Assembly (NCBI GenBank): GCA_019695095.1
Contig: JAIBAQ010000060.1
Span: forward strand, 1 to 32,659
DNA from: Candidatus Hydrogenedentota bacterium
GTDB lineage: Bacteria > Hydrogenedentota > Hydrogenedentia > Hydrogenedentales > SLHB01
DNA: 32,659 bases
Direction: 5' to 3'
Every line of letters starts with the position of its first letter. The stretch's first letter is position 1. The notes beneath the pieces were generated by a model. The model had not been told where the DNA came from, made no database searches, and worked only from the letters and a program-made list of their open reading frames with translations. Shown in pieces: positions 10,863-29,125 of the stretch. The translations under genes were made by a program, and so were the position numbers.

Positions 10863-10890
10863 TTTCCCCGGACCGGGGGACCCCTAACCC

Positions 10891-11072
10891 GCGATTTGCA
10901 CCGGCGCAACCGAGCGCCGACGCAGATCGCTCACGTGCCAGACGTTGAGGTTATGCCATGAGGATTTCTCGCGAACACACGCTGTCCATGAAGACTTGTT
11001 CCTATTTTCGCTGCAACCCCATCAAACACAGCAATTGCGAGTTAGTCTCGTGTGTGTTCGCAAGGAATCCGG
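10891..11072 (+). repeat. Structured 182-bp repeat, copy 1
   Basis: This copy aligns without gaps to 15058-15239 read on the minus strand, with roughly 74% identity by hand count. It begins with a hairpin of 17-nt arms (10891-10907 and 10914-10930) around the loop AACCGA. A 33-nt core (10948-10980) is identical in both copies. It ends in a near-perfect palindrome, GGATTTCTCGCGAACACAC (10962-10980) against 11052-11070. The five bases CCTAA occur just left (10883-10887) and just right (11073-11077), which may be a target duplication or chance. It lies 85 bases after the SGNH gene stop on the same strand and ahead of the phasin-like gene. No known family is recognised. It could be a small non-autonomous mobile element or a structured RNA. 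Confidence 0.85.
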
Positions 11073-11077
11073 CCTAA
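10958..11077 (+). CDS. Possible 39-residue small protein encoded in repeat copy 1
   Basis: An ATG with GAGG seven bases upstream opens 39 codons ending in TAA. The product begins MRISREHTL and ends VFARNPA. The matching copy at 15053-15172 has the same length and keeps the N-terminal nine residues plus FR, KH, CE, VF and RNP. Base differences between the copies are spread over all three codon positions (about 10, 13 and 14 by hand count), which does not look like protein-level selection. The frame may only reflect nucleotide-level constraint on the palindrome, so the call is low confidence. Confidence 0.25.
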   Translation: MRISREHTLSMKTCSYFRCNPIKHSNCELVSCVFARNPA

Positions 11078-11102
11078 GACTCTGGAAAGGAGGTTCGCGA
11101 TT

Positions 11103-11645
11103 ATGGCGGAAGTGAAGTCGAATTCACCAAGTAGTAAGGGCGGATCAGTAAAAAAGAAGGGGGTGATCATTCCGATGTTTACGGCGAAGAAGCAGAAGAA
11201 GGCTGTCCAAAAGAAGGTGAAAGCGCTGAGCGACAACACGGTTCGCAGAGCGACCAAATTGGCGTTGAATCTGGTCGATTTTCAGAAGACCACTTTCGAC
11301 AACACCATTCGTGTATTCACGGCATTGCAGGAACAAACCGAAAAGCTCATTCAAGAGCTCACCGTGAAATCGACTTGGATGCCAAAGGAAGGTAAGAAAG
11401 TCGTCGAGGAATGGATTAAGACGGTCAATCGCAGCCGAAACGACTTTAAGAAGACCATGGACCGCAGCTTTGATTTGATATCGGCCTATCTCAAGCGCGT
11501 GCAGGAAGACGAAAGCGCAAAGGCGAAGCCTGCAAAACCGAAGGCCAAGGCGAAGGTCAAGGCCAAGGCGAAACCTCGGGCAAAAGCAAAGGCGAAAGTA
11601 CGCCCCAAGGCGCCGGCTCCTTCTGAGAGCCTTCCAAGCATGTAG
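11103..11645 (+). CDS. PhaF-like phasin with histone-H1-like basic tail
   Basis: This 180-residue protein has three parts. A short basic N-terminus ends in VIIPMFTAKK. A helical region (about 45-135) has the phasin-type pattern FQKTTFDNTIRVFTALQEQ, later WIKTVNRSRNDFKKTMDRSFD. The C-terminal tail (about 140-172) is built of Lys-Ala-Lys-Pro repeats. That layout matches PhaF/PhaI-type granule proteins, where the phasin part coats polyhydroxyalkanoate or lipid granules and the H1-like tail binds DNA. The start at 11103 has a perfect AAGGAGG nine bases upstream; a longer in-frame start at 11052 lacks one. No PHA synthase is in the window, but a wax/TAG synthase gene is next door, so storage-granule binding is a reasonable inference. 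A nucleoid-binding protein without granule function is the alternative. Confidence 0.7.
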   Translation: MAEVKSNSPSSKGGSVKKKGVIIPMFTAKKQKKAVQKKVKALSDNTVRRATKLALNLVDFQKTTFDNTIRVFTALQEQTEKLIQELTVKSTWMPKEGKKVVEEWIKTVNRSRNDFKKTMDRSFDLISAYLKRVQEDESAKAKPAKPKAKAKVKAKAKPRAKAKAKVRPKAPAPSESLPSM

Positions 11646-11666
11646 CTTTCGAAATCAAACATACGT

Positions 11667-11712
11667 TGCGCCGCGACTGGCAGAACCTGCCATCGCGGCG
11701 CATTTTGTTTTT
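11667..11712 (+). terminator. Rho-independent terminator after the phasin-like gene
   Basis: The stem TGCGCCGCGA plus TGGCAG (11667-11683) pairs with CTGCCA plus TCGCGGCGCA (11687-11702) around a three-base loop. TTTTGTTTTT follows directly. It lies 22 bases past the stop at 11645. Confidence 0.93.
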
Positions 11713-11784
11713 CGGATGGAAACGGTATCGCGCAGGCCCTTCGTTCTCATGGCGCGGCATTGCCGCAACCAAAAGAGACTCAAC

Positions 11785-11814
11785 CACTGATGGACACTGA
11801 TGAACTCCGATAAA
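11785..11814. repeat. Three 10-bp degenerate tandem units
   Basis: CACTGATGGA, CACTGATGAA and CTCCGATAAA follow each other directly. The stretch sits in the 11713-11963 gap between two convergent genes. Apart from a small ATCCTTCG/CGAAGGAT hairpin (11947-11964) at the end of the wax synthase gene, nothing else is seen in this gap. Confidence 0.5.
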
Positions 11815-11963
11815 CGAGGCAAAGCATCTACTCGCACAACACGCAACTGTCCGAGAACTTACTTCAGCAGCCGCTTGAAACTACGCAAATTTCAAACGAG
11901 CTTGAGAAATAGGGAGCTGGCGGGGCGACGGACTGCTCACGCACAAATCCTTCGAGCGAAGGA

Positions 11964-13517
11964 TCACATGACCGCCTGTCGGCCTGGGGGTGCAGCAGAC
12001 GGGGCTTGGGCTTGGGCGGCGGTCCGGGTGACAACGCGTGCTGCGGGGCGAAATGCGCGTGGAATCTCCACGTAGAGGCGTTCCTTGACCTCCGCTGCCA
12101 CCCGTAATTCGTGAAAACTGTCAGCAAGAAAATCGACAATCTTGTCGGAGTCAGGGGCCGCCTGAGCATCACCGATTATGGAGATATACAATCGTTGGTC
12201 GTAACTGGTCACCCCGCAACTGATTCCCATTTCCAGCGCGACGGGCAACAGGACGTAGTGCGTAAGCAATTGGTGTCCGACCGTGTACAACGGGATTTGA
12301 GGCCCGGGGACATTGGTGCAGATGAGGTGAGACGGCGGTACCTGCGCGAGCAGACCCAGCAGGAATTGTCCGCTTGACGAGGCCGCGTTACTGAGCGCAA
12401 TGGACTGCAACAGCGTAGGGGCTCCCTGCAAAACGTTGAACATGAGGCTGATGGCCTCGATGACTTTCGTTTCCTTGAGGTGCTGCGTAGTCTCGGCGAT
12501 GATCCGCAATCGTTCCACGGGGTCAAGAATGTCGAGAGGAATATCGACGGGTAGAAATGAGATTCGATTCCCCATCTCACCCCGCTCGTCTTCTTGACGG
12601 ATATTCACGGGTACAAGAATCCGGACGGTTTGCTTGCGAAGCGACTCGCCGTGCATCTCGAGATAGCGTTGAATAGCACCGCTCACGACGGTCAACGCGA
12701 CATCATTGACGGTGCCTCCGCACGCAGTCCGGATGTCGCGCGCCTCCGCAAACGAGAAGCTTCGGCCAATGATGGTCCTCTTCCCGCTAAACGGTTTGTT
12801 GAACGGGAAGCGTTTAATGGGTGAAAGGAAGTCCTTCATCGTCAGGCCGAATTCCTTCACGTCGGTGAGGACTTCCTTAATATCTTTGCCGTCACCGTAT
12901 TCAGCCAGATTTTTCTGAAACTTGGACCAATGCTCCAGCGTCTCCGATAGGCCATCCCACAGTGCGTCGTAAAGAAGTTGAGTCGGCGAGGGAATCGGAT
13001 CGGGGCGATAAGGCTGTTTTCGTGTCTTTTCCGGATTGGGCCACGCATCGAAGACAGCATGCATGAGTCCGACACCCGCGATTCCATCGATCATGCAATG
13101 ATGGACCTTGGCAAGCATGCCAGTGCGTTTCTGCGCCAACCCTTCGACGAGATGAATTTCCCAGAGAGGCTTGCTTCTATCGAGGGGCCCCGAGAACAAT
13201 TGTCCCGCGATGTCGTAGAACTGTTCTTCGCTTCCCGGCGAATCGATCTTCACCCGCTTGATATGGTTGCGAATGTTGAAGTTAGGATCGAATTCCCACG
13301 TGGGCAACCCGACGTTGAAGGGTGCCGGCGTAACAACCTGGCGGTATCGTGGAATGAGGTGAAGGCGTGATTCGATATTGCGGACAAACTTAGTGTAGGA
13401 AATCTTGCCTTCGAAGATGTCCACGCAACCCACGTTCATGGGCTGCTCTTCCGTTTCAATGTGCAGGAAGAAGGCATCCATTGCAGAAAGACGACGGCGC
13501 AACGAGTTCTGGGACAT
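11964..13517 (-). CDS. Wax ester synthase / diacylglycerol O-acyltransferase (WS/DGAT)
   Basis: This 517-residue bifunctional acyltransferase makes wax esters or triacylglycerol from acyl-CoA and a fatty alcohol or diacylglycerol, at the membrane or droplet surface. The condensation-type active site HHCMIDG is present (His139-His140, Asp144-Gly145). Other family landmarks are the N-terminal MDAFFLHIE, PLDRSKPLWEIHLVEGL, NDVALTVVSGAIQRYL and the C-terminal NVPGPQIPLY. Length and start are typical, although no strong ribosome-binding site precedes the ATG. It is convergent with the phasin-like gene and divergent from the hydrolase gene at 13739. A possible TetR-type operator lies between them. 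Together the neighbours suggest a neutral-lipid storage island. Confidence 0.95.
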   Translation of the reverse strand: MSQNSLRRRLSAMDAFFLHIETEEQPMNVGCVDIFEGKISYTKFVRNIESRLHLIPRYRQVVTPAPFNVGLPTWEFDPNFNIRNHIKRVKIDSPGSEEQFYDIAGQLFSGPLDRSKPLWEIHLVEGLAQKRTGMLAKVHHCMIDGIAGVGLMHAVFDAWPNPEKTRKQPYRPDPIPSPTQLLYDALWDGLSETLEHWSKFQKNLAEYGDGKDIKEVLTDVKEFGLTMKDFLSPIKRFPFNKPFSGKRTIIGRSFSFAEARDIRTACGGTVNDVALTVVSGAIQRYLEMHGESLRKQTVRILVPVNIRQEDERGEMGNRISFLPVDIPLDILDPVERLRIIAETTQHLKETKVIEAISLMFNVLQGAPTLLQSIALSNAASSSGQFLLGLLAQVPPSHLICTNVPGPQIPLYTVGHQLLTHYVLLPVALEMGISCGVTSYDQRLYISIIGDAQAAPDSDKIVDFLADSFHELRVAAEVKERLYVEIPRAFRPAARVVTRTAAQAQAPSAAPPGRQAVM

Positions 13518-13586
13518 AATCCATCACCCGGTGGTTCACAGAATGGTTGATACACGCACCTATACAGCTAGGCATAATTCCAACAT

Positions 13587-13600
13587 ACCGGACGGTCGGT
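13587..13600. promoter_or_regulatory. Possible TetR-family operator between the WS/DGAT and hydrolase genes
   Basis: ACCGGACGGTCGGT is an imperfect inverted repeat (ACCG...CGGT ends) resembling operators of TetR-type lipid-metabolism regulators. It lies 70 bases upstream of the wax synthase start and overlaps a TTGACG on the minus strand (13601-13606) that could be its -35. No regulator gene is nearby. Confidence 0.35.
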
Positions 13601-13676
13601 CGTCAAGTGTTACTTTATCCCTTCGAGATTCGCGAGATTCTCGCTGCGCACGTTGCCTGAGCCGGGGGAAGGGGTG

Positions 13677-13685
13677 TGCTATAAT
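13677..13685 (+). promoter_or_regulatory. Extended -10 promoter for the hydrolase-LRAT operon
   Basis: TGCTATAAT at 13677-13685 is a full-consensus extended -10. The predicted transcript start falls near 13692, inside the perfect hairpin GACACAG-CATCG-CTGTGTC (13687-13705). That hairpin would form the extreme 5' end of the message, just ahead of GGAGG at 13723. Confidence 0.6.
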
Positions 13686-13738
13686 CGACACAGCATCGCT
13701 GTGTCCGATTCTGTGTCATCCTGGAGGCGTCCTTGCCC

Positions 13739-14599
13739 ATGCCGGGCCGCGACAATCTGGTAGTCAATGAACTTGAGCCCGTTGACCTTCCCATCTGGCG
13801 GGAGGCGTTTGCGGGGACCGAATGGCTCCGCTTGAAGACATCCAGAGTCTACTACGGTTTCGGCATTCCTCGAGGAAACGGAGCAGCCGTCGTGCTGGTG
13901 CCTGGATTCCTTGCGGTAGACTGGTATCTGATCGAGCTGCACTGCTGGTTGCGTCGTATCGGACACAGACCCTATATGTCGCGTATCGGGCACAACGCCG
14001 AATGCCCTAATATCCTTATCGACTATCTCCTGAAGACGGTTCGCCGTGCGAAGAAGGACACGGGGCGCAAGGTGCACCTAGTCGGCCACAGCTTTGGCGG
14101 CGTGCTGGCCAGGAGCGTCGCTTCCTATCATCCGGAACTAATTGAGTCGGTGGTTACCTTGGCGTCGCCGTACCGTGGGGTACGCGTTCACCCGTGGGTA
14201 CTTGCGGCAAGCCGGGCAGTTCGCTGGAGTATTCATCAGCGCACTCAGCGGCGTCTTAACGGCCGGGTTGAAAAGGACTGCTACACGAGCCGATGCGCGT
14301 GCGGGTTCGCGTGCACGTGGCGAGATGGCTTTCCCGCGAATGTGAGACAGCTTTCGATCTACACGAAGACGGACGGAATCGTGGACTGGAAGGTGTGTAT
14401 AAGCGATTTCGCCAAAACCAACATCGAAGTACATGGAACCCATTCTGGATTGGCCTTCAATCCGGATGTCTACCGAATACTTGCGTATCACTTGGCTTCG
14501 GCGCCGATTGGCGGCACCAATGGTCGCACGGTGGCAGCCGTCAAGCCCGCCAGGGCCAAACGGAAGTCGCGGCGTCAGGTTCCGGCGAGCGCGGGTTAA
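13739..14599 (+). CDS. Alpha/beta-fold hydrolase (lipase/esterase-like)
   Basis: This 286-residue protein has the nucleophile elbow GHSFGG with Ser118. Asp212 in YTKTDGIVDW and His235 in GTHSGL complete a plausible catalytic triad. An oxyanion-type VLVPGFL lies near residue 54. A cysteine cluster, CYTSRCACGFAC, sits between the cap region and the Asp motif and may form disulfides or bind metal. An in-frame TTG at 13733 would add two residues; GGAGG at 13723-13727 serves either start. No signal peptide is visible. It stands divergently from the wax synthase gene and 15 bases before the LRAT gene, so turnover or remodelling of stored lipid is the likely role, inferred from context. Confidence 0.85.
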   Translation: MPGRDNLVVNELEPVDLPIWREAFAGTEWLRLKTSRVYYGFGIPRGNGAAVVLVPGFLAVDWYLIELHCWLRRIGHRPYMSRIGHNAECPNILIDYLLKTVRRAKKDTGRKVHLVGHSFGGVLARSVASYHPELIESVVTLASPYRGVRVHPWVLAASRAVRWSIHQRTQRRLNGRVEKDCYTSRCACGFACTWRDGFPANVRQLSIYTKTDGIVDWKVCISDFAKTNIEVHGTHSGLAFNPDVYRILAYHLASAPIGGTNGRTVAAVKPARAKRKSRRQVPASAG

Positions 14600-14614
14600 G
14601 ATTGGAGTGTTTGG

Positions 14615-15043
14615 ATGGCCCGAGGCGACCATATCCGCGTTAAGCGGTTCGGCTACTGGCATCACGGTATAGACTGCGGCGATGGCACGGTGATTCACTT
14701 TACAGGTGAGCCGCGTGACTATCGCAATGCCGCCATCCGAAGGACTTCGATTGAGGATTTCGCGAAGGGTGGCCGTGTGCGCGTCGTACGTCATCGCGGG
14801 TCGTACGACCCCGAGGTGGTTGTCGAGCGGGCGGAAAGCCGACTTGAAGAAACTGGCTACCATCCCGTTCGCAACAATTGTGAGCATTTTACGCGCTGGT
14901 GCGTGACTGGCGCTGCGGAAAGCAGGCAAATCCGCCGTGCGCTTTATGCACTAACCGGTTTTGCCGTCACGTTAGCGGGAACTGTGACGGCCGCCGCATT
15001 GTTGCACTCGGTACGACGCAGGTCACGACGGTCCGATGCATAA
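14615..15043 (+). CDS. LRAT-family (NlpC/P60-like) acyltransferase or thiol hydrolase with C-terminal anchor
   Basis: This 142-residue protein has the lecithin:retinol-acyltransferase signature. It starts GDHI, has WHHGID (His16/His17), GDGTVIHF (His28), and the nucleophile motif NCEHF with Cys89. Members move or cleave acyl groups on phospholipids or related amides through a cysteine intermediate. A single hydrophobic segment (about 110-131) followed by RRRSRR makes a C-terminal membrane anchor. GGAG seven bases before the ATG supports the start. It probably shares the message with the preceding hydrolase. The acyl donor and acceptor cannot be told from sequence. Confidence 0.85.
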   Translation: MARGDHIRVKRFGYWHHGIDCGDGTVIHFTGEPRDYRNAAIRRTSIEDFAKGGRVRVVRHRGSYDPEVVVERAESRLEETGYHPVRNNCEHFTRWCVTGAAESRQIRRALYALTGFAVTLAGTVTAAALLHSVRRRSRRSDA

Positions 15044-15052
15044 TGCCGGGTT

Positions 15053-15172
15053 CTATCCCGGATTTCTCACGAACACAAATGAACCTCTCTCGCAAGCATT
15101 GTGTTTACGAGATTTGCGGCGAAAAACAAGGCGGTTCTCCGAAAACAGAGTGTGTTCGCGAGAAATCCTCAT
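15053..15172 (-). CDS. Possible 39-residue small protein encoded in repeat copy 2
   Basis: This is the partner of the reading frame at 10958-11077, with the same length, the same start context (CAGG seven bases upstream) and a stop at the equivalent codon. It begins MRISREHTL and ends VFVRNPG, with a more basic middle than copy 1. It is downstream of and on the same strand as the GH36-like gene. The codon-position pattern does not favour protein selection, so this is a candidate only. Confidence 0.25.
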   Translation of the reverse strand: MRISREHTLFSENRLVFRRKSRKHNACERGSFVFVRNPG

Positions 15173-15239
15173 GGCATAACCTGAATGTCCTTCACGTGAG
15201 CAATTTGCGTCGGCGCTCAATCGCGCCGGTGCAAATTGC
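15058..15239 (-). repeat. Structured 182-bp repeat, copy 2 (inverted relative to copy 1)
   Basis: Read on the minus strand, this copy starts with a hairpin of 17-nt arms (15239-15223 and 15216-15200) around the loop GATTGA, then the invariant 33-nt core. It ends in the palindrome GGATTTCTCGCGAACACA (15168-15151) against 15077-15060, with 17 of 18 positions matching. Compared with copy 1, the third hairpin pair is A-T instead of G-C (both sides changed), and both copies keep an AC/AC internal loop. It begins only three bases after the stop of the GH36-like gene on the same strand. Confidence 0.85.
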
Positions 15240-15242
15240 GGA

Positions 15243-17225
15243 CTACTCCGGGTCTATGAAGAGAAGAGCGGATTGCCGCACAGTATCAAATGTCACCGCA
15301 ATCCCTTCCTTGTGCAGGCTCCGGCCCGAGACGGACTGCGGCTCGCTTTGAGAGGATGCATCTGCATCGGTTACGCGATAGTGGCCTCTTCCCGTCAATC
15401 CGGATAGTGGAACAGTCTGAGTAAACGCGCCAGCGCCGTCCCAGCGGCACAACAGGATGGCGGCCCCGTTCCCATTCGGGGCATAGAAGACGATACCTGC
15501 TAGGGACGAGTCCTTTTCTGGGTACAGCACGTCGTACACGTACCCCTCTTTGTACGGTGTGAGTCGTCTGTAGTTGGCGACTTCCTTCACGATAATGTCG
15601 CGTTGCCGCGGTTGAATCTTGGCGAGGTCGGCGACAATTCCCCAGGTTCCTGGAAAGGCGCTTCGGCAGTATAGCCGCGTGAACTCGTCGTCGTTTGGAT
15701 CGTTTTGATCGGGGTTATTGATCCAGCGATTACTGGTCCACGGAGGAAGGATGTAAAGAGACCCGAGGACCTCGCGGAGTATGGCCCGCGCGTGCTTGGG
15801 CCCGGTGCTCCCTCCATCGCGAATCCACTGATTCTGCGCAATGCCGAACGTGAATTCGTTGAGCATGCGTCCCCCACTCTGACAATTTTCGATCATGAGT
15901 TCCGGGTATTGGGCGCGGACGGCGCCAAGGGCATTCTGAAGCGCGACAACGTTCTTCATCACGCCGTGGCGAGTCTGATCAGTAAAGAAGTCCTGGTCGT
16001 ATTTCCACCAGTCGGCCTGATACTGCGAACGGAGAGCAGCCACGTGATTTAACAGGTAAGACGTGAAATCCGTACCGGCCATATCGATTAGGTGACCGTC
16101 GATGAACTTTCGGTAAAAGCCAGGCTGATCGACCTCTTTGGGCAGTTCCTTGACATCCTTCGGAACCCTCATGAACTGCGGGCATGTCCAAATCCCGATC
16201 TTGGGACCCTTCTTGCGCACTTCGGCGAGTATTCCCTCGAATTGCCCTGGAGCGAACTTCGCGGGGTCCGGTGTCCAGTCGCCGACGCACCGGTACCAGC
16301 CCGCGTCAACGATAAAGTAATCGAACGAATAGGGGTCGAGGTTATCAAGCTGGCGCTGCAGGAACGGCCCGTCTACTGCGAAGCGAGTCGTATACCAGTG
16401 GTTGTACGTAAATGGATAGCTCGGTGCTGGCCCGCCAAACAGGGCGCGTGCTAACGAGCAGCGCTGCGACAACCACGAGGCCCGGCTAAGGCGTTCCTCG
16501 GATTCGCGGACAATGGTGAGTTCGGCAATGGGGCCGACAATCCGTTCGCTTGGGGCCAGCTTTAGTTGGGTTTCGTTCTTTGGAAGACTGATCGAGAAGT
16601 GCAGAGCGGTATCTGTCCCGGAGAGACGCGCTTGCCAGCCGCCGCACCAGGCCAACGCGAAGTACAGTTGAGTCTTGCCATCTGAGATAACCCAGTACGG
16701 ATTCACGCCTTTCTCGATATCGTCGGAACTGTGCAGCCTGCTACCGATTTCGATCTTCTTTCCCTGTGACACATTCTCTGAGTAGGGTTCAAACGACAGG
16801 GCATGCCAATTGGTGAAGGTTCGCTTCTTCTTGGGCAGCGACCAGTCCGCTTCCCAAATGGGATAGGTCGCAACCGCGACTTCGGCGGACCCCGGGTTCG
16901 TCAGTTCGACGTACGTACGGAGGAGCGAGCCGCTTTTGGTTAGTTCCACAATGCGTTTCGCGGGTAAACCGGAAGGGCCTATGAATTCAGCCTCGGCACG
17001 CAAGAACACCGCGTCTTCACTCTGGCGCCACACAACCCCCTCCGTGTCATTGTGCAACTCCTTGAACACCGTGGAGGCCGATGGAATCCACTTAACACTG
17101 GCAATGCACGGCTCGCCTTTTTCGGATTGTCCGAGGTGGACAGCGACTGTACCGTTGTTTAGTTCGAGCGCAAGCGCGCCCAAACTTAGGAATGCACACA
17201 GAACGGAACCAACGAAACTTCTCAT
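15243..17225 (-). CDS. Secreted GH36-like (alpha-galactosidase-related) protein, catalytic acid position altered
   Basis: This 660-residue protein has a signal peptide (MRSFVGSVLCAFLSLGALA), a beta-rich N-terminal supersandwich-like region, a GH36/GH27-type barrel and a C-terminal beta domain. The barrel shows DYFIVDAGW near residue 304, KYDQDF with the expected nucleophile Asp410, and ENCQSGGRMLNEF. In classical GH36 enzymes the last motif supplies the acid/base Asp, but here the aligned residue is Asn456, followed by Glu. Activity, substrate or mechanism may therefore differ. The frame extends upstream to 17393, but the ATG at 17225 has a GGGAGGAG ribosome-binding site and starts the signal peptide. 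It diverges from the RMD1-like gene at 17351. Confidence 0.8.
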   Translation of the reverse strand: MRSFVGSVLCAFLSLGALALELNNGTVAVHLGQSEKGEPCIASVKWIPSASTVFKELHNDTEGVVWRQSEDAVFLRAEAEFIGPSGLPAKRIVELTKSGSLLRTYVELTNPGSAEVAVATYPIWEADWSLPKKKRTFTNWHALSFEPYSENVSQGKKIEIGSRLHSSDDIEKGVNPYWVISDGKTQLYFALAWCGGWQARLSGTDTALHFSISLPKNETQLKLAPSERIVGPIAELTIVRESEERLSRASWLSQRCSLARALFGGPAPSYPFTYNHWYTTRFAVDGPFLQRQLDNLDPYSFDYFIVDAGWYRCVGDWTPDPAKFAPGQFEGILAEVRKKGPKIGIWTCPQFMRVPKDVKELPKEVDQPGFYRKFIDGHLIDMAGTDFTSYLLNHVAALRSQYQADWWKYDQDFFTDQTRHGVMKNVVALQNALGAVRAQYPELMIENCQSGGRMLNEFTFGIAQNQWIRDGGSTGPKHARAILREVLGSLYILPPWTSNRWINNPDQNDPNDDEFTRLYCRSAFPGTWGIVADLAKIQPRQRDIIVKEVANYRRLTPYKEGYVYDVLYPEKDSSLAGIVFYAPNGNGAAILLCRWDGAGAFTQTVPLSGLTGRGHYRVTDADASSQSEPQSVSGRSLHKEGIAVTFDTVRQSALLFIDPE

Positions 17226-17350
17226 TTCGCACTCCTCCCGCCCAAAAGGCCAGGCGTCTCTCCTACTCCTCTGGCGGATTCCCCCAAAGCCCATGTATGC
17301 TAACGGCAAGGTACCATACGGAACCCACAGACTCCCAATTCGGAGAAGCC

Positions 17351-18148
17351 ATGGAGCCGCAACTGTTTCAAGGACACACCTCGATACATACAAGGGCGGT
17401 CCTGCTTGCGGACCGGCTTGATCTCACACTGTTCGACGCGACAGAGAAGATTGCGGCATCGCCGCTGCTGGTGCGCGCGGGTGAACATGGTTGCGCGGCC
17501 TTGTTTCGCTACGGAGCGGTCGTGCTCTTCGGGCTGCAGCCCGTGGAAGAGGCAGCGTTTCTGAGCGACTTGCGCAAGCTCATCAAGGAACCGCACGCGC
17601 AACCTTCCGAAGAGACGGCAGAGATACGTTTCGACGCGCAGGCCGACGAACAGATTGTCAACGGTGTGCTGATACTGCGCACGCCTTCCGTGGAGCGTTT
17701 GCAGCTTGTCGCGGACAGCCTCGCGGAAAGCGCCGTACTGCACCGGTACGAAGGAATTGTCGCGGCAACGTTCGATCGCGTCGAGCCGCTGGCCAGTCAA
17801 CTGCAGCAAGGAAGGAGCTCGGGCAAGGGAAGCCGTGAACTCTTACAGCACATTGGCGCTGCGTTGTTGATGGAACACCTCATGGTGGGTCGAATCGAAG
17901 TCGCGGAGAAACCCGAGGTGTTGTGGGAGCATGCCGAGCTCGAGCCGTTATACGCACGCATTGCCAGCGATTACGAACTGCGCGAGCGCAAACTTGCCCT
18001 TGAACGAAAGCTCATGCTGATTTCGCGCACTGTGGAGACAGTGCTCGACCTTCTTCAACATCGACGCAGCTTGCGGGTCGAGTGGTATATCGTGGGATTG
18101 ATTGTCTTCGAGATCATTCTGTCTCTTTACAGCATGTTCTGGGCGTAG
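17351..18148 (+). CDS. RMD1/DUF155-family membrane-anchored protein
   Basis: This 265-residue protein matches the RMD1/YagE (DUF155) layout. The N-terminal part has GAVVLFGL (about 57-64), a central helical region follows, and a single C-terminal membrane segment WYIVGLIVFEIILSLYSMF ends the protein. In eukaryotes, relatives (RMD1, RMND1) reside in organelle membranes and support mitochondrial translation. The bacterial role is not established. The frame is open back to 17192, but ATG 17351 has GGAG five bases upstream and avoids overlap with the divergent GH36-like gene. Nothing in the neighbourhood explains its function. Confidence 0.85.
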   Translation: MEPQLFQGHTSIHTRAVLLADRLDLTLFDATEKIAASPLLVRAGEHGCAALFRYGAVVLFGLQPVEEAAFLSDLRKLIKEPHAQPSEETAEIRFDAQADEQIVNGVLILRTPSVERLQLVADSLAESAVLHRYEGIVAATFDRVEPLASQLQQGRSSGKGSRELLQHIGAALLMEHLMVGRIEVAEKPEVLWEHAELEPLYARIASDYELRERKLALERKLMLISRTVETVLDLLQHRRSLRVEWYIVGLIVFEIILSLYSMFWA

Positions 18149-22121: not shown

Positions 22122-25100
22122 TTATCCCAGGTGGTTGCTGCGCGTGTTGCTTTCGCGCTCGTTGTGACAACACACCTGAGCCGACTTAGGTTCCTTTGAG
22201 CGGTATACGGCGACCATGCCCGCAATGAGCAGAACAACCGCAACAGACCAGGGCGATACCGGTACCGACTCGGGAACATCCAATTCCACGGTAAACGCGG
22301 AACCTGAATCATAGACTTTCGGGGAGAGATTTCCCGACGCGTCCTTACACACGCCCGCAGCGATCTCGATACCGAGGGTACCCGTGCCCGTGATGTTGCT
22401 CACAGTGACTGTTCGGGTTGTCGCGGATTTTGCCTCCGAGATTGACACTTCGCCGTTTGCGGTTCCCGACTTGATCAGCCGGACATCGTTTAAGGTCAAA
22501 TTCACTTCCACCGCATCAACAAAGGTCAAGGTGTAGGTGACGGGTCCATTCTGTGTCGTGCGAACGGAGGGCGAACTCACGACGACAGCGGGAAGCATGT
22601 CGTAGGTTACCTTCAGGGCGCTCGATGCCGTGCTTCCATTGCCTGATTTGTCGCGGGCCGCGTCTGCCTTGACAGAGATGGTGACATCCCCTTGCTGACT
22701 TGGCGTTATGTCAAAGGTATAGACCTTATCGCTGACGGCTTTGAATTTGCCGACTGCGCTTGGACCTGCAGCGATGTCATCTTGCGCGAATCCCGTGACG
22801 GACTCGTTAAACGTTGCAGTAACCGGAATCAGGGGCGTATTCACAACGGCGCTGCCGCTAGTCAAGACTACCGTAGGTGCAGTCTTGTCAATGGTGTAAA
22901 CTGGGCCGCTTGTATAATCACCATCATGATCTTCAGGCCCACCCAGCGGATTCAGATTGCTGTCAAGAATCGTCCCGTCATCAACGAGGTCGATGCCAAC
23001 TGAACCGCTTCCGGTACCGGTGCTGACTGCCACCGTGTATGTGTTGCCCGAACCCGAGATGCTTGTAACGGCTGCATCGGAAATGCTCCCGTCATGCAAC
23101 GTGAAGTCTGCGGAATCGACACCTGTCACAGGGGACGCAAATTCCACCTTAAAGCCGACGGAAGCCGCGTTACTCGGATTCGTGTTTTGCAGCGTTATCG
23201 CCGTTACCTGAACCGGCGTGCCCGTATTGACGGTCAACTCATTTGAGGTGGAGTCAGTCGCCGTGTTGCCTGCAACGTCTGTTGCGACAGCTTGGACGTC
23301 GTAAGTGTGTACGCCAAAGGGAAGCGCGTCAGTCACTTCGGCAGTCCATGCGCCGCCACCAACCGTTGCCGGGTACGTGTTGCCGTTCACCTGCACTTCA
23401 ACACTTGTTACACCGGTATTGTCAGAAACGGTTCCGCTGAGGACAGGTTGCCGTTTGGCTGTGGTCAAGGTATTGACGGTTACGACGGGATCTTCACCCA
23501 TACCACCGCCGAGGTCCGAGTCGGAATTGGCGGACGGATCGACCACATTACCGGCTATATCGTGTACCTCTTGTGCGGTGATCGTAACGTCACCGTTGCT
23601 GCGCATCTCGCCGGAAGTCCACGCGAGCAAGTACGTGTTGTCTCCCTGGTCGGTAACGGATTCAGGTGTGTCGCTAAGGCTTCCTTGACCTGATCCAGAA
23701 AGGGTGTAGTTGCCGGGAGTCAGCGCATCAGTTCTCAGCGATTCGCTGAAGCTTACGGATACGTGCAAAGCATCGACGACTGACACATCAATCACAGTCG
23801 GCAGCACGCCGATACCGCCACCAGTGATCGTGAACTGTCCGCCGAGAGGATTCACCGTATTCCCGGCACGATCCTGAACATTGGAAACGGAAACCGTAAC
23901 ATCTCCGCCCTTGGTCATCTCCCCTGCGTTCCAACGCAGGCGATAGACGTGATCATGATCGAGCACGGCTGAGTCGGGCTGGTCGGTCAGACTTCCCTTG
24001 CCGGAACCCGAAAGCGCGTAGTTCGACGCGCTAACCGCGGCCGTTGTCACAGCCTCGCTGAAGGTTACATCGATAAACAGACCGTCGCTTTCGCCAGTCT
24101 CCGCAAGAGCAATCGATGGAGCGGTCTTGTCGATTTCGTATTGTGGACCGTTGGTATAGTCGCCGTCATTGAGCGCGGCGCCGCCGAGGGAATTGGAGCT
24201 TTCATCGAGGATGCTATTGTCGTCGACGAGGTCGAGGCCGATAGTTCCGTCGCCGGTGCCGGAATTCACGCTGACCGTGTATGTAGTACCCGACCCGGTC
24301 ACGCCTGACACGGACGCATCCCCAATGCTCCCGGACCGGAGTGTGAAGTCGCTTTCATCGACGCCCGTCACGTTGGCAGAGAATATGACCTGAAACTCCA
24401 CCGTCGCAGCGTTGCTGGGCGTGGCGCCTACACGCACAATCCCTTCAACAATCGTTGGTTTGCTCACATCGATGGTAAGTTCGTTCGTCGTGGAGTCTTC
24501 GCCTACGTTCCCAGCGGTGTCAACAGCTTTGGCCTCTACATCGTAGGTTTGCGTAACGAAAGGCAGTGCATCCGAGACAAGCACGTACCAGGTAGTACCA
24601 GTTACAACGGCTGCATACGTATTTCCATTAACTGTGACGTTCACGCCTGTTACCGCGACGTTATCGGCGACGGTTCCAGTGAGCCGAGGTGTGCGGCCGG
24701 ATGTCGTGAGCGTATTGACAGTGACCGTTGGTGACTGGCCAATACCGCCGCCGGTCTGGGTGGCGCTGTTTGCGGCGCCAATGCCGTTACCAGCAAGGTC
24801 CTGAACATTCGCTACAGAAACGGTGACGTCGCCGCCGCTCTTCATCTCCCCGCTGCTCCAGGCAAGTCGGTACGTCGACTCATCCAAAGCCACTACGGCA
24901 GTTGGAGTCGCATTCAGCGTGCCCTTGCCGCTACCAGAGAGCGTGAAGTTGGATGCCGTCGCAGCACCTGTTCCAATCGCTTCGCTAAACGTCACATCGA
25001 CGTGAGTGCTGTCCACCGCTGAGACTGCGCTCACCGAGGGTTTCACGCCGACACCAGTCCCCTGTTCCGTTGCGCTGTTGCCCGTGCTGCCAATCGCGTT

Positions 25101-28100
25101 GCCGGCAAGGTCCGCTGCGTCACTGGAGGTTATGGTGATGGTTCCTCCGTCTTTCATTTCACCGCTGGACCACTCCAGACGGTACGTAGACCCGGAAGTG
25201 AATGTGACCAGATTAGGACAAAGCGAGAGGGTGCCTTTGTCGCCAGATATGGAATAGTTGTTGGCAACGAGGGCACTACTTCCCATCGATTCGCTAAACG
25301 TGACGCTTACGTTCGTGGCGTCGATGACATGTATCGAGGTCACCGTAGGCAGGGTTCCGATACCACCCTTCACGTGTGTCGCGGAATTGGAGGCTCCAAT
25401 CGTGTTTCCTGCGGTATCGGCAACATTTGTAGCTGTGATCGTGACATCCCCACCACTCACCATTTCGCCGGAGGTCCACGTCAGCCGGTAGGTGTTTCCG
25501 CTAACCAGAGCCACAGTCGCCGGGGTTGACGATAGCGTTCCTTTCGCACCTGAAATTGCGTAGTTGCTGGATGAAGTCACACCCGACCCCATAGGTTCAT
25601 TGAATGTAACGTCGACTTGAAGCGCGTTCACTACCTTGACTTCGGACAGGGCTGGAGCAGTTCCCACGCCAGTCCCCGTTGCGGTGTTGGGCGAGCCAAG
25701 TATGTTGCCAGCGGCGTCTTTTACATTCTGGACCGTGACAGTGAAGACTCCGCCGCTCTTCAGCTCACCGGAAGTCCAAGCAAGTTGATATACGCCACTG
25801 CTGACCTGCGAAACGCTGGCAGGAGCAGACGGCAATGTGCCCTTCTGTCCGGAAATTGCGTAGTTGGCTGCTGTGGTAACGCCCACGCCCATGGCTTCGG
25901 AGAAGACAACGTTGATGTGTGTTCCGTCGACGACATTTACGGATGCGACAGTCGGGGCGACACCAATTCCGCCTCCGACAACCGTTGAGGCATTGCCGAG
26001 AGGAGAAATTGTATTGCCTGCCGCGTCTTGAACGCCTGTCGCGGTAATGGTGATATCGCCGCCATTCAACATTTCTCCAGAGGGCCATCCCAGGCGATAC
26101 CTTCCATTTCCGAGAGACGTTACGGCGCTTGGATTTGCGCTCAAAGTACCCTTACCGCTACCTGAAAGGGTGTAGTTGCTTCCAGAAGTCGTCCCGCTTC
26201 CCATAGACTCGCTGAAGACAATGTCGATGTTGAAACCGTTGTAGACGGAGACTCCGGTGATAGTTGGCGGAGTGCCGATTCCACCACCCGTGTGTGTTCC
26301 ACTCTGGCCAGCTACTGCGATTGCGTATCCCGCCAGATCCTGAACGTTCGAGACCGTTATTGTGACGTTCCCTCCGTTCACCATTTCTCCGGACAACCAC
26401 GAAAGCCGATAGGTGTTGCCGCCCAAGGATGTCACGGAATCCGGGTGAAGTGCGAGGCTGCCCCTGCCTGTTCCCGAAATGCTGTAATTCGCCGCAGTCG
26501 TTGCGCCCGACGCCAGCTCCTCGCTGAACGTTACATCCACTTGATTAGCGCTCGTGACGAGCACCGTGCTTACACTTGGAGCATTGCGGTCCACGCGAAT
26601 TGAGTTGTCCGTGCTCAAGGAGGCTGTGTTGGCGTTTACCCCCAACAAATCGGTGCAGCGTCCTGCAGAAATAGAAACGGTTACCGTGCCGTCAGTCCCG
26701 ATAGTGTCGATACTAATGTCGTACGTGGCAGGACCGCCCGTTACCAGAACAGACCTCGTGCCTCCAGCGGTTCCGCCCAACGTTACGTCCGACGCGTCGA
26801 AGCCTGTCACCGATTCACTGAACGTCGCGGTGAAGTGTATCGGGGTTGTGTCGGTTGGGTCTGCCTGCCCGGCGGCCTGTGTTACGGCAACCGATGGTAC
26901 CGTCGTATCCACGTCGTATGAAGGTCCGACCCTATCCGAAGCGTTGCCGTTGGTGCCTCCCACGGGGAGTTTTCCGACGTCTTTCACCGAGTCATTGTCA
27001 ACGAATTTGAGTCCCACAGTGCCCACGCCGGTGCCCGATGAAATGGTTACAGTCCAGACTTTGCCAGAGCCGGTAACGCTGCCAATGGCAGGTTGGGTGC
27101 TGAAACTACCCGAGATGATCGGGACAAAATCTGCAGCATCCAGGCCCGTCACTGCTTCGCCGAATGTCACCGTGAATACCAGAGAAGTGGCGTTGGTCGG
27201 CGTAGCGCCAGCGAGGGATATCGATGGAGCCGCAGGGGTGGGATTGATGGCCAAACCAACCGAACTCGTGTTGGTTGACGGCAGAAAAGCGGTGTAAAGA
27301 GCGTTCTGTTTAGGGTTCCCCGAAGGGGCGATACCATCAGGGAATAAGCCATTGCTGCTGTCAGTCAGACTGAACTTGTTCAAGGTGTTTAGGGGGCCGC
27401 CGTTTACGACCCACAGAAAGCCGTCTTCGATCGCGCCACCCACCACACTATCCAGATTGCTCCCCGAGCTATTTCTCAATTGCTTCGAGACACCCATGGA
27501 CTGTCCGTTGGAGCGCTGATAGCGGTAGACCTTTCGATTGCCGGCCTTTTCCAGCACGTAGGCGTAGTCGGCGTCTAAGGCAAGACCATCGTTGCCCGTG
27601 GGACTGGAAATTGAACGCGACGCATTAAGGGACGTCGCTCCGCCTGAAGTCATCGCGTTCGTCAGGTTGTATACATGAAGGCGGCCGCCATTACCCTTGT
27701 CAGCAACCCACAGTTCGTTAGCGGCTTCGTCTACCGCAACACCCGCGACTATGCCTAATGCAACACCGGTTGAGGACCGAAGGATTTTGGAACTTGCCGG
27801 ACTGCTGCCGTCGTAAGAATAGCGAACGACTTTCTTGGCCGTGTTGTCGAGTACATACAGGTAAGCGTCGGACGCGCAGACATCAGCCTCGGAAATCGAA
27901 CCGGTAGAAAATGAGGTCTGAAGCGAAATCGACTCGTCGTACCCTCGCACGAGACTGTCTCCAGAGTCGACCGTCAGGTACTTCTGAATCTGGGCCGACG
28001 CTGGAATCGTCGCGGCCCACAATACGATTGCCATCTGGAAGAGGCAAGAAGAAATGCAGAGGGGCCCATTCCCCTTGAGGCTTCGGATACCGCCGATGCA

Positions 28101-28136
28101 GGGTACTGCGAGACTTTTATATAAACGTTGATTCAT
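22122..28136 (-). CDS. Giant secreted Ig-like-repeat surface protein (2,004 residues)
   Basis: A signal-peptide-like N-terminus (MAIVLWAATIPASAQ at about 35-49) leads into an NHL/propeller-like region (about 60-300; YVLDNTAKKVVRYSYDG, LWVADKGNGGRLHVYNL). Bacterial Ig-like domains with VTFSESVTGF motifs follow, then at least eight SwmB-like repeats of about 100 residues. These repeats have the pattern VDVTFSEAMGSG..NY..SG.KGTLS..P...YRL.W.SGEM..GGDVTI...VQD.AGN. Interspersed Ig modules read VTVNTLTT...VTVNGNTY. The C-terminus VPVSPWSVAVVLLIAGMVAVYRSKE looks like a tripartite sorting tail (motif, membrane helix, basic end), followed by a cysteine-containing stretch. It is probably a fibrous adhesin or matrix protein. 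The ATG at 28136 has GGTGGG nine bases upstream, but an internal ATG at 28034 would give a more normal signal peptide. Confidence 0.88.
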   Translation of the reverse strand: MNQRLYKSLAVPCIGGIRSLKGNGPLCISSCLFQMAIVLWAATIPASAQIQKYLTVDSGDSLVRGYDESISLQTSFSTGSISEADVCASDAYLYVLDNTAKKVVRYSYDGSSPASSKILRSSTGVALGIVAGVAVDEAANELWVADKGNGGRLHVYNLTNAMTSGGATSLNASRSISSPTGNDGLALDADYAYVLEKAGNRKVYRYQRSNGQSMGVSKQLRNSSGSNLDSVVGGAIEDGFLWVVNGGPLNTLNKFSLTDSSNGLFPDGIAPSGNPKQNALYTAFLPSTNTSSVGLAINPTPAAPSISLAGATPTNATSLVFTVTFGEAVTGLDAADFVPIISGSFSTQPAIGSVTGSGKVWTVTISSGTGVGTVGLKFVDNDSVKDVGKLPVGGTNGNASDRVGPSYDVDTTVPSVAVTQAAGQADPTDTTPIHFTATFSESVTGFDASDVTLGGTAGGTRSVLVTGGPATYDISIDTIGTDGTVTVSISAGRCTDLLGVNANTASLSTDNSIRVDRNAPSVSTVLVTSANQVDVTFSEELASGATTAANYSISGTGRGSLALHPDSVTSLGGNTYRLSWLSGEMVNGGNVTITVSNVQDLAGYAIAVAGQSGTHTGGGIGTPPTITGVSVYNGFNIDIVFSESMGSGTTSGSNYTLSGSGKGTLSANPSAVTSLGNGRYRLGWPSGEMLNGGDITITATGVQDAAGNTISPLGNASTVVGGGIGVAPTVASVNVVDGTHINVVFSEAMGVGVTTAANYAISGQKGTLPSAPASVSQVSSGVYQLAWTSGELKSGGVFTVTVQNVKDAAGNILGSPNTATGTGVGTAPALSEVKVVNALQVDVTFNEPMGSGVTSSSNYAISGAKGTLSSTPATVALVSGNTYRLTWTSGEMVSGGDVTITATNVADTAGNTIGASNSATHVKGGIGTLPTVTSIHVIDATNVSVTFSESMGSSALVANNYSISGDKGTLSLCPNLVTFTSGSTYRLEWSSGEMKDGGTITITSSDAADLAGNAIGSTGNSATEQGTGVGVKPSVSAVSAVDSTHVDVTFSEAIGTGAATASNFTLSGSGKGTLNATPTAVVALDESTYRLAWSSGEMKSGGDVTVSVANVQDLAGNGIGAANSATQTGGGIGQSPTVTVNTLTTSGRTPRLTGTVADNVAVTGVNVTVNGNTYAAVVTGTTWYVLVSDALPFVTQTYDVEAKAVDTAGNVGEDSTTNELTIDVSKPTIVEGIVRVGATPSNAATVEFQVIFSANVTGVDESDFTLRSGSIGDASVSGVTGSGTTYTVSVNSGTGDGTIGLDLVDDNSILDESSNSLGGAALNDGDYTNGPQYEIDKTAPSIALAETGESDGLFIDVTFSEAVTTAAVSASNYALSGSGKGSLTDQPDSAVLDHDHVYRLRWNAGEMTKGGDVTVSVSNVQDRAGNTVNPLGGQFTITGGGIGVLPTVIDVSVVDALHVSVSFSESLRTDALTPGNYTLSGSGQGSLSDTPESVTDQGDNTYLLAWTSGEMRSNGDVTITAQEVHDIAGNVVDPSANSDSDLGGGMGEDPVVTVNTLTTAKRQPVLSGTVSDNTGVTSVEVQVNGNTYPATVGGGAWTAEVTDALPFGVHTYDVQAVATDVAGNTATDSTSNELTVNTGTPVQVTAITLQNTNPSNAASVGFKVEFASPVTGVDSADFTLHDGSISDAAVTSISGSGNTYTVAVSTGTGSGSVGIDLVDDGTILDSNLNPLGGPEDHDGDYTSGPVYTIDKTAPTVVLTSGSAVVNTPLIPVTATFNESVTGFAQDDIAAGPSAVGKFKAVSDKVYTFDITPSQQGDVTISVKADAARDKSGNGSTASSALKVTYDMLPAVVVSSPSVRTTQNGPVTYTLTFVDAVEVNLTLNDVRLIKSGTANGEVSISEAKSATTRTVTVSNITGTGTLGIEIAAGVCKDASGNLSPKVYDSGSAFTVELDVPESVPVSPWSVAVVLLIAGMVAVYRSKEPKSAQVCCHNERESNTRSNHLG
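24740..26580 (-). repeat. Six contiguous tandem repeats of about 307 bp inside the giant surface-protein gene
   Basis: Six successive units each encode about 100 residues, from PSVSTVLV to the sixth GGGIG. Each contains a FSE/FNE-type motif, SGEM (or SGEL) and D.AGN. Two further units lie at about 23500-24115, separated by other Ig-like modules. The units differ at many positions, so recent amplification is unlikely. Confidence 0.8.
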
Positions 28137-29048: not shown

Positions 29049-29125
29049 TGGCGCGCCCGACTGGACTCGAACCAGTGGCCCACGGCTTAGAAGGCCGTTG
29101 CTCTATCCACCTGAGCTACGGGCGC
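29049..29125 (-). tRNA. tRNA-Arg (anticodon TCT)
   Basis: The minus strand folds into a full cloverleaf. The acceptor GCGCCCG/CGGGCGC is followed by the D arm GCTC...GAGC, the anticodon stem ACGGC/GCCGT with loop CTTCTAA, and the T arm ACTGG-TTCGAGT-CCAGT. The discriminator is G and the 3' CCA is encoded (29049-29051). Five T residues follow immediately (29044-29048 on the plus strand as A), acting as a simple terminator. It decodes AGA/AGG arginine codons. Confidence 0.97.

Follow-up and report, generated by a model that had tools for sequence, protein, structure and literature searches.

A 186-bp repeat family, very probably of miniature transposons, in the genome of an uncultured Hydrogenedentota bacterium

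The window analysed in this work, i.e. the whole stretch of 32,659 nucleotides from contig JAIBAQ010000060.1 of Candidatus Hydrogenedentota bacterium (GCA_019695095.1), carries two inverted copies of a repeat that is dispersed over the genome of this organism. We take the repeat family to be a non-autonomous miniature DNA transposon of 186 bp (a miniature inverted-repeat transposable element, MITE), built of two palindromic arms and a conserved linker. We put the probability of this reading at about 0.92; it is supported by the duplicated target sites, by the number of copies and their star-like burst in the tree, and by the truncated or internally deleted forms. The family is new, and its kind, the bacterial MITE, is familiar; we would be dealing with a lineage-confined miniature transposon in more than 100 places in the genome of one uncultured bacterium. 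An earlier, sequence-only reading of the window had offered three guesses, namely a structured RNA, a 3'-end processing element and a non-autonomous mobile element; the last agrees with our results, whereas selection on RNA structure in individual copies found no support.

Copies, unit and target-site duplication

A first search of the genome (6.77 Mb in 405 contigs) brought up about 40 additional copies, the majority of which align across the full 182 bp that had originally been given as the length of the repeat. A 26-nt core, with at most three mismatches allowed, occurs in 107 places of the same genome as opposed to none for the reversed-pattern control, so the proposed check for further copies ended with at least 107 places. 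About 116 regions were fetched, and they yielded 101 copies of full length in addition to fragments. The pattern that led to most of the copies lies at about positions 66-91 of the alignment, which lowers the divergence there, and this stretch was left out of the variant comparison. None of 146 other genomes contains the 26-nt core; 24 of these genomes belong to the same family and none to the same genus. There is no exact match to the core in the GTDB species collection, a BLAST search with the consensus gave nothing in 67 other genomes of the phylum, and neither the consensus against plasmids and phages nor an exact 21-nt core against viral contigs gave any match. The family is confined to one genome among those compared.

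The copies are flanked by 4-bp direct repeats of the form NTAR, which are target-site duplications, the mark of staggered-cut transposition. The left and right flanks agree in 80, 82, 78 and 81% of cases at the four positions, respectively, as compared to 29, 77, 75 and 47% predicted from column composition; the agreement at positions 1 and 4 exceeds every permutation, and it ends sharply outside the four bases, apart from one weak offset. Since the agreement covers exactly four bases, the unit is 186 bp long. Identical 4-mers flank 44 of the 93 copies assessed, while shuffles gave a mean of 8.6 and a maximum of 19 in 5000. The duplicated target is mostly NTAG, the base before TAG being C in 36, A in 25, G in 17 and T in 15 copies, and this base co-varies with the base at the other side of the element.

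In the window, copy 1 occupies positions 10888-11073 (+) between two CTAA tetranucleotides (10884-10887 and 11074-11077), and copy 2 occupies positions 15057-15242 (-) between GTAG (15243-15246) and ATAG (15053-15056), both read on the minus strand. The two copies lie where the sequence-only reading had placed them, and their 182-bp alignment is indeed free of gaps, with an identity of 75% (about 74% by the earlier count); only the extent has to be changed, to 186 bp.

The consensus consists, in this order, of TCC, a left arm, a 31-nt linker, a right arm and GGR. The left arm is predicted to form a hairpin whose 9 and 6 bp are separated by an AC/AC internal loop; by sequence and consensus fold this arm lies at 10891-10930 (+) in copy 1 and 15200-15239 (-) in copy 2. 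It is followed by the conserved linker (TCACGTG...GGTTATGCCATGA in copy 1), at 10931-10961 (+) and 15169-15199 (-), respectively. In the right arm a 19-20 bp stem closes a 71-nt variable centre (10981-11051 (+) in copy 1), the 5' strand of the stem lying at 10962-10980 (+) and 15150-15168 (-), and its 3' strand at 11052-11070 (+) and 15060-15078 (-). Several details noticed beforehand are real, such as the long invariant core between the two window copies, the opening hairpin with its AC/AC loop in both copies and differing terminal loops, and the exchange of the third pair from G-C to A-T (GCGATTTGC/GCAGATCGC in copy 1, GCAATTTGC/GCAAATTGC in copy 2). What had been taken for a palindrome of 18-19 bp at the opposite end is the stem of 19-20 bp, with about 70 nt of variable sequence between its arms.

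In its fold the consensus forms a closed junction from which two long arms extend, and it folds far better than shuffles (-82 kcal/mol and z -6.7 as RNA, z -5.8 as DNA). The ends of the element, TCCGCAATTTGCAC and, reversed, YCCGGATTTCTCAC, form a short imperfect terminal inverted repeat, in which TCCG...CGGA is a perfect match of 4 bp within an imperfect likeness of about 14 bp (TCCG-ATTT-..CAC); pairing takes place between an end and its own inner arm and not between the two ends. No coding signal was detected, i.e. there is no codon-position bias; two consensus frames are open, and half of the young copies have stops in the open frame. Deleted forms recur: some lack about 46 nt of the centre (L064, L080, L092, L111, L129), others lack a part of the left hairpin, which is 16 nt shorter and forms a smaller palindrome (L061, L069, L143, L144, L147), and still others are left-end fragments. 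The recurrent deletion forms are possibly separate subfamilies. Unpaired ends, inspected one by one, turned out to be truncated or internally deleted copies, or chance matches.

Stop codons as insertion sites and the putative transposase

All 101 full copies are intergenic according to gene calls made with a purpose-built codon model. The in-frame stop codon of the upstream gene lies within the left duplication in 33 of them and within the right duplication in 6; given that stop codons make up 9% of the non-coding TAG sites, the excess at the left side has a p of about 3e-11. Copy 2 of the window is such a case, as its duplicated TAG ends the melibiase-like gene at 15243-17393 (-). The genes of relatives of the encoded protein have no element at their end, and the alignments of these relatives extend to residues 643 and 646 of 646, i.e. 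they reach about the same C-terminal residue; we conclude that the insertion did not shorten the gene. It is correct that both window copies follow a gene on their own strand, though the distances first given, 85 and 3 bases, become 82 bp for copy 1 and 0 bp for copy 2. In the whole family the upstream gene is on the same strand for 62 of the 101 copies (62 vs 24), and this excess comes mostly from the exact stop-codon hits, as 29 vs 18 (p = 0.14) remain when these are removed. By our own calls TAG is the commonest stop codon in the fetched regions (TAG 221, TGA 153, TAA 122). This predominance is unexpected at 56% GC, and the element accounts for a part of it.

DDE enzymes make staggered cuts in their target. 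We suppose that a transposase acting in trans would recognise the palindromic ends and cut an NTAR target with a 4-base stagger. With TAG or TAA in the target and the target duplicated, a gene hit at its stop codon would stay intact, while insertions within genes would be lost and some of the intergenic ones would hit promoters, which would leave the stop codons as a safe site. That all copies are intergenic, with one third of them on stop codons, could then be explained by the target duplication sparing the stop and by the loss of in-gene insertions, with or without a preference of the enzyme. The family offers a clear case of a target duplication that would turn a stop codon into a safe landing site.

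It is conceivable, if rather improbable, that in some genes the copies at stop codons later became the 3' ends of transcripts, a view that is compatible with a MITE origin. A strong hairpin starts 3 nt past the duplicated stop codon in one third of the copies, and ERIC and Correia elements alter the stability of neighbouring transcripts (PMC2229807). On the other hand, there is no purifying signal over the copies taken together, and a terminator-like T run is absent. We consider it about equally doubtful that the transposase recognises the two self-palindromic arms and moves the element via folded (cruciform or single-strand) ends, being an enzyme outside the searched families that prefers stop codons.

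The search for a partner among known transposase families gave only rejected candidates. The single DDE_Tnp_1 gene (L152:1932-3401, contig C133), open over 490 aa and near a contig end, has other ends, GAGGCTGTCTCACAA...TTGTGAGACAGCCTC; the insertion sequence (IS) that carries it is presumably IS1182-like. DDE_3 is represented by one locus (C12) that lacks the element ends, and the four Y1_Tnp matches have no copy of the element nearby. DUF4096 gave one sub-threshold match and no partner, and no gene for DDE_5, DDE_Tnp_1_2 or DDE_Tnp_4 was found in the genome. A pair of ends 1.8 kb apart on contig C86, at first sight a full transposon, is really one whole and one truncated copy flanking an ordinary gene. 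Most bacterial MITE families are likewise without a described partner (PMC2229807).

As expected of MITEs, the repeats are shorter than about 500 bp, non-coding, dispersed in at least 107 copies and flanked by a fixed 4-bp duplication; long inverted repeats at the termini and a known helper are the exceptions. There are several points that weigh against the transposon interpretation. Firstly, no transposase with matching ends was found either among the searched families or by terminal motif, which in an assembly of 405 contigs is no proof of absence. Secondly, the ends are self-palindromic and resemble each other over only about 14 imperfect bases, unlike in classical MITEs. Thirdly, 42 of 93 copies (45%) have A or G at the first target position, so the target is NTAR and not the strict YTAR of IS5. 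Finally, an empty site was not shown among the comparison genomes, which include none of the same genus.

Variation in the stems and the question of RNA structure

In the tree, 68 copies form a star-like burst, in which the inner branches are very short and the end branches long; the remainder includes older subfamilies. Copy 2 of the window falls within the burst, and copy 1 belongs to an older group of six copies (support 97/87). The window pair looks unevenly conserved because of this; the clustering of differences that had been reported for the two copies is real, but it is not specific to the pair and reflects the distance of an old subfamily from the main burst.

Variants that occur in at most two copies of the burst are equally frequent in the stems (2.6% per site) and in the centre (2.3%, p = 0.33), whereas the commoner variants are eightfold denser in the centre (10.7% per site) than in the stems (1.3%, p about 1e-70). 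Since rare variants are evenly spread and shared variants avoid the stems, we conclude that the arms are constrained in the lineage that moved and that the landed copies decay neutrally. The stems would have stayed alike because they are needed for movement, while the centre was free to change. The comparison also provides a criterion by which mobile palindromes can be separated from selected RNAs, i.e. even rare variants together with shared variants that avoid the stems.

There is little room left for the idea that the repeat is a structured RNA, or a 3'-untranslated region (UTR) element for processing or stability, selected by the host at each locus. The strong fold of the consensus speaks for it, and the frequent same-strand upstream gene means that many copies would be transcribed as 3' UTRs, but this orientation bias is not significant without the exact stop hits, no orthologous copies occur in the relatives compared, and the rare variants are as frequent in the stems as in the centre. 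Rfam has no model that reaches the gathering score, in agreement with the earlier statement that no known family is recognised. RNAalifold gave an uninformative 9-pair structure on the 97-copy alignment, and the consensus fold was counted pair by pair instead: 88% of the pair cells are standard pairs, and 24 pairs are changed on both sides vs 19.6 in shuffles, a value reached by 39 of 500 shuffles. The covariation proposed earlier as a check did not appear, the score of the whole structure in the 97 copies being no higher than in shuffles (0.098 vs 0.098). Among the changed stem pairs of the young copies 63 are broken, 27 are kept as wobble and a single one is compensated, and from a transition share of about 58% we estimate that this breakage equals the neutral expectation.

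What remains in favour of an RNA are compensatory pairs in the left arm of the old copies, where we count 16 compensated doubles vs about 9 double changes expected. These doubles, a small number of events that include the third-pair exchange between the window copies, fit either selection on the arms of the moving element or correction between the palindrome arms. In addition, the left hairpin is inverted, i.e. nearer to its own reverse complement, in two copies (L068:6942-7129 and L096:2964-3151), pointing to a palindrome inversion at the DNA level, and reshaping of this kind can mimic compensation. We regard the structured RNA as mostly refuted already. A warning may be drawn from this example, as a strong fold (z -6.7) and one compensatory pair between two copies do not alone prove a functional RNA.

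Comparison with known repeats and the surroundings of the window copies

It is instructive to compare the general features of the MITE proposed here to known systems. IS5, with the duplication motif YTAR, is the best-known enzyme that duplicates 4 bp centred on T-A (PMC10359306); IS711 shares this target and duplicates TA (PMC2266754). IS5-group elements appear to be the nearest known model for the NTAR target. Their MITEs share the 4-bp duplication of a tetranucleotide centred on T-A, but here the first base is not only C or T and the ends are palindromic; the assembly yielded no IS5-type transposase whose ends match. In architecture, as far as descriptions rather than sequences can be compared, the nearest relatives would be CIR (Caulobacter CerM-associated intergenic repeats) and Bru-RS of Brucella, which also have two long palindromic arms and a linker, are intergenic, measure about 100-200 bp and occur in many copies (PMC2229807). 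Unlike our consensus, which has none, CIR carries GANTC methylation sites in a terminal loop. CIR is also shared between species and its target duplication is listed as uncertain, whereas here a clear 4-bp duplication is found in one genome.

In size and copy number the family seems nearest to RUP, Correia and ERIC, and in the supply of stop codons to the GTAG REPs. RUP, Correia/NEMIS, ERIC and YPAL are, like the present repeat, about 100-200 bp long, mostly non-coding, intergenic and present in many copies; their transcripts form stable hairpins, and most of their termini have TA (PMC2229807). These families have pairing between the 5' and 3' ends and a target centred on TA, as opposed to pairing within each arm and 4 duplicated bases in our case.

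A REP or REPIN moved by a RAYT (a Y1, single-strand transposase), in which the TAG before the left hairpin would be the GTAG tag, is the least probable of the alternatives: the arms are palindromic and preceded by NTAG and the genome has two good Y1_Tnp genes, but the base before TAG varies and co-varies with the other side, the tetranucleotides are direct and not inverted repeats (GTAG...CTAC), Y1 enzymes to our knowledge make no target duplication, the Y1 genes lack a nearby copy or ends of the element, and the unit is 186 bp and not 20-40 bp. GTAG REPs and REPINs share with the family the palindromes that adjoin TAG, lie downstream of genes and often provide the TAG stop of the neighbouring open reading frame, but they differ in having a fixed GTAG tag, units of 20-40 bp in opposite orientation, no duplicated target and a link to RAYTs (PMC3733652). 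In short, the element fails the REP tests as well as the CIR test for GANTC. The Y1 (RAYT-like) genes lie at L180 and L181 (G000:C43 and C22), and there is a strong perfect hairpin near one of them; a separate REP system in the genome is possible.

The two window copies bracket genes for a WS/DGAT, an alpha/beta hydrolase and an LRAT-domain protein, which lie side by side at 11964-15043. The sequence-only reading had described the copies as bracketing a lipid-storage island. Neighbouring pairs at most 4.3 kb apart are about as common as expected by chance (8 among the listed copies, 5.4 at random, P = 0.17), so the bracketing is within chance and has no special meaning. The product of the presumed phasin gene at 11103-11645 has no Pfam match. 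For one protein of the window the nearest relatives with a name come from metagenome-assembled genomes (MAGs) labelled Hydrogenedentota and Acidobacteria, and the former is the likely affiliation of the host. Further along the window, at 22122-28136, a protein of 2004 aa is encoded, and the DNA of its gene has internal repeats at distances that are multiples of about 309 bp, a pattern of repeated domains. The only Rfam match in the window is a tRNA gene at 29052-29125 (-), with 68.8 bits.

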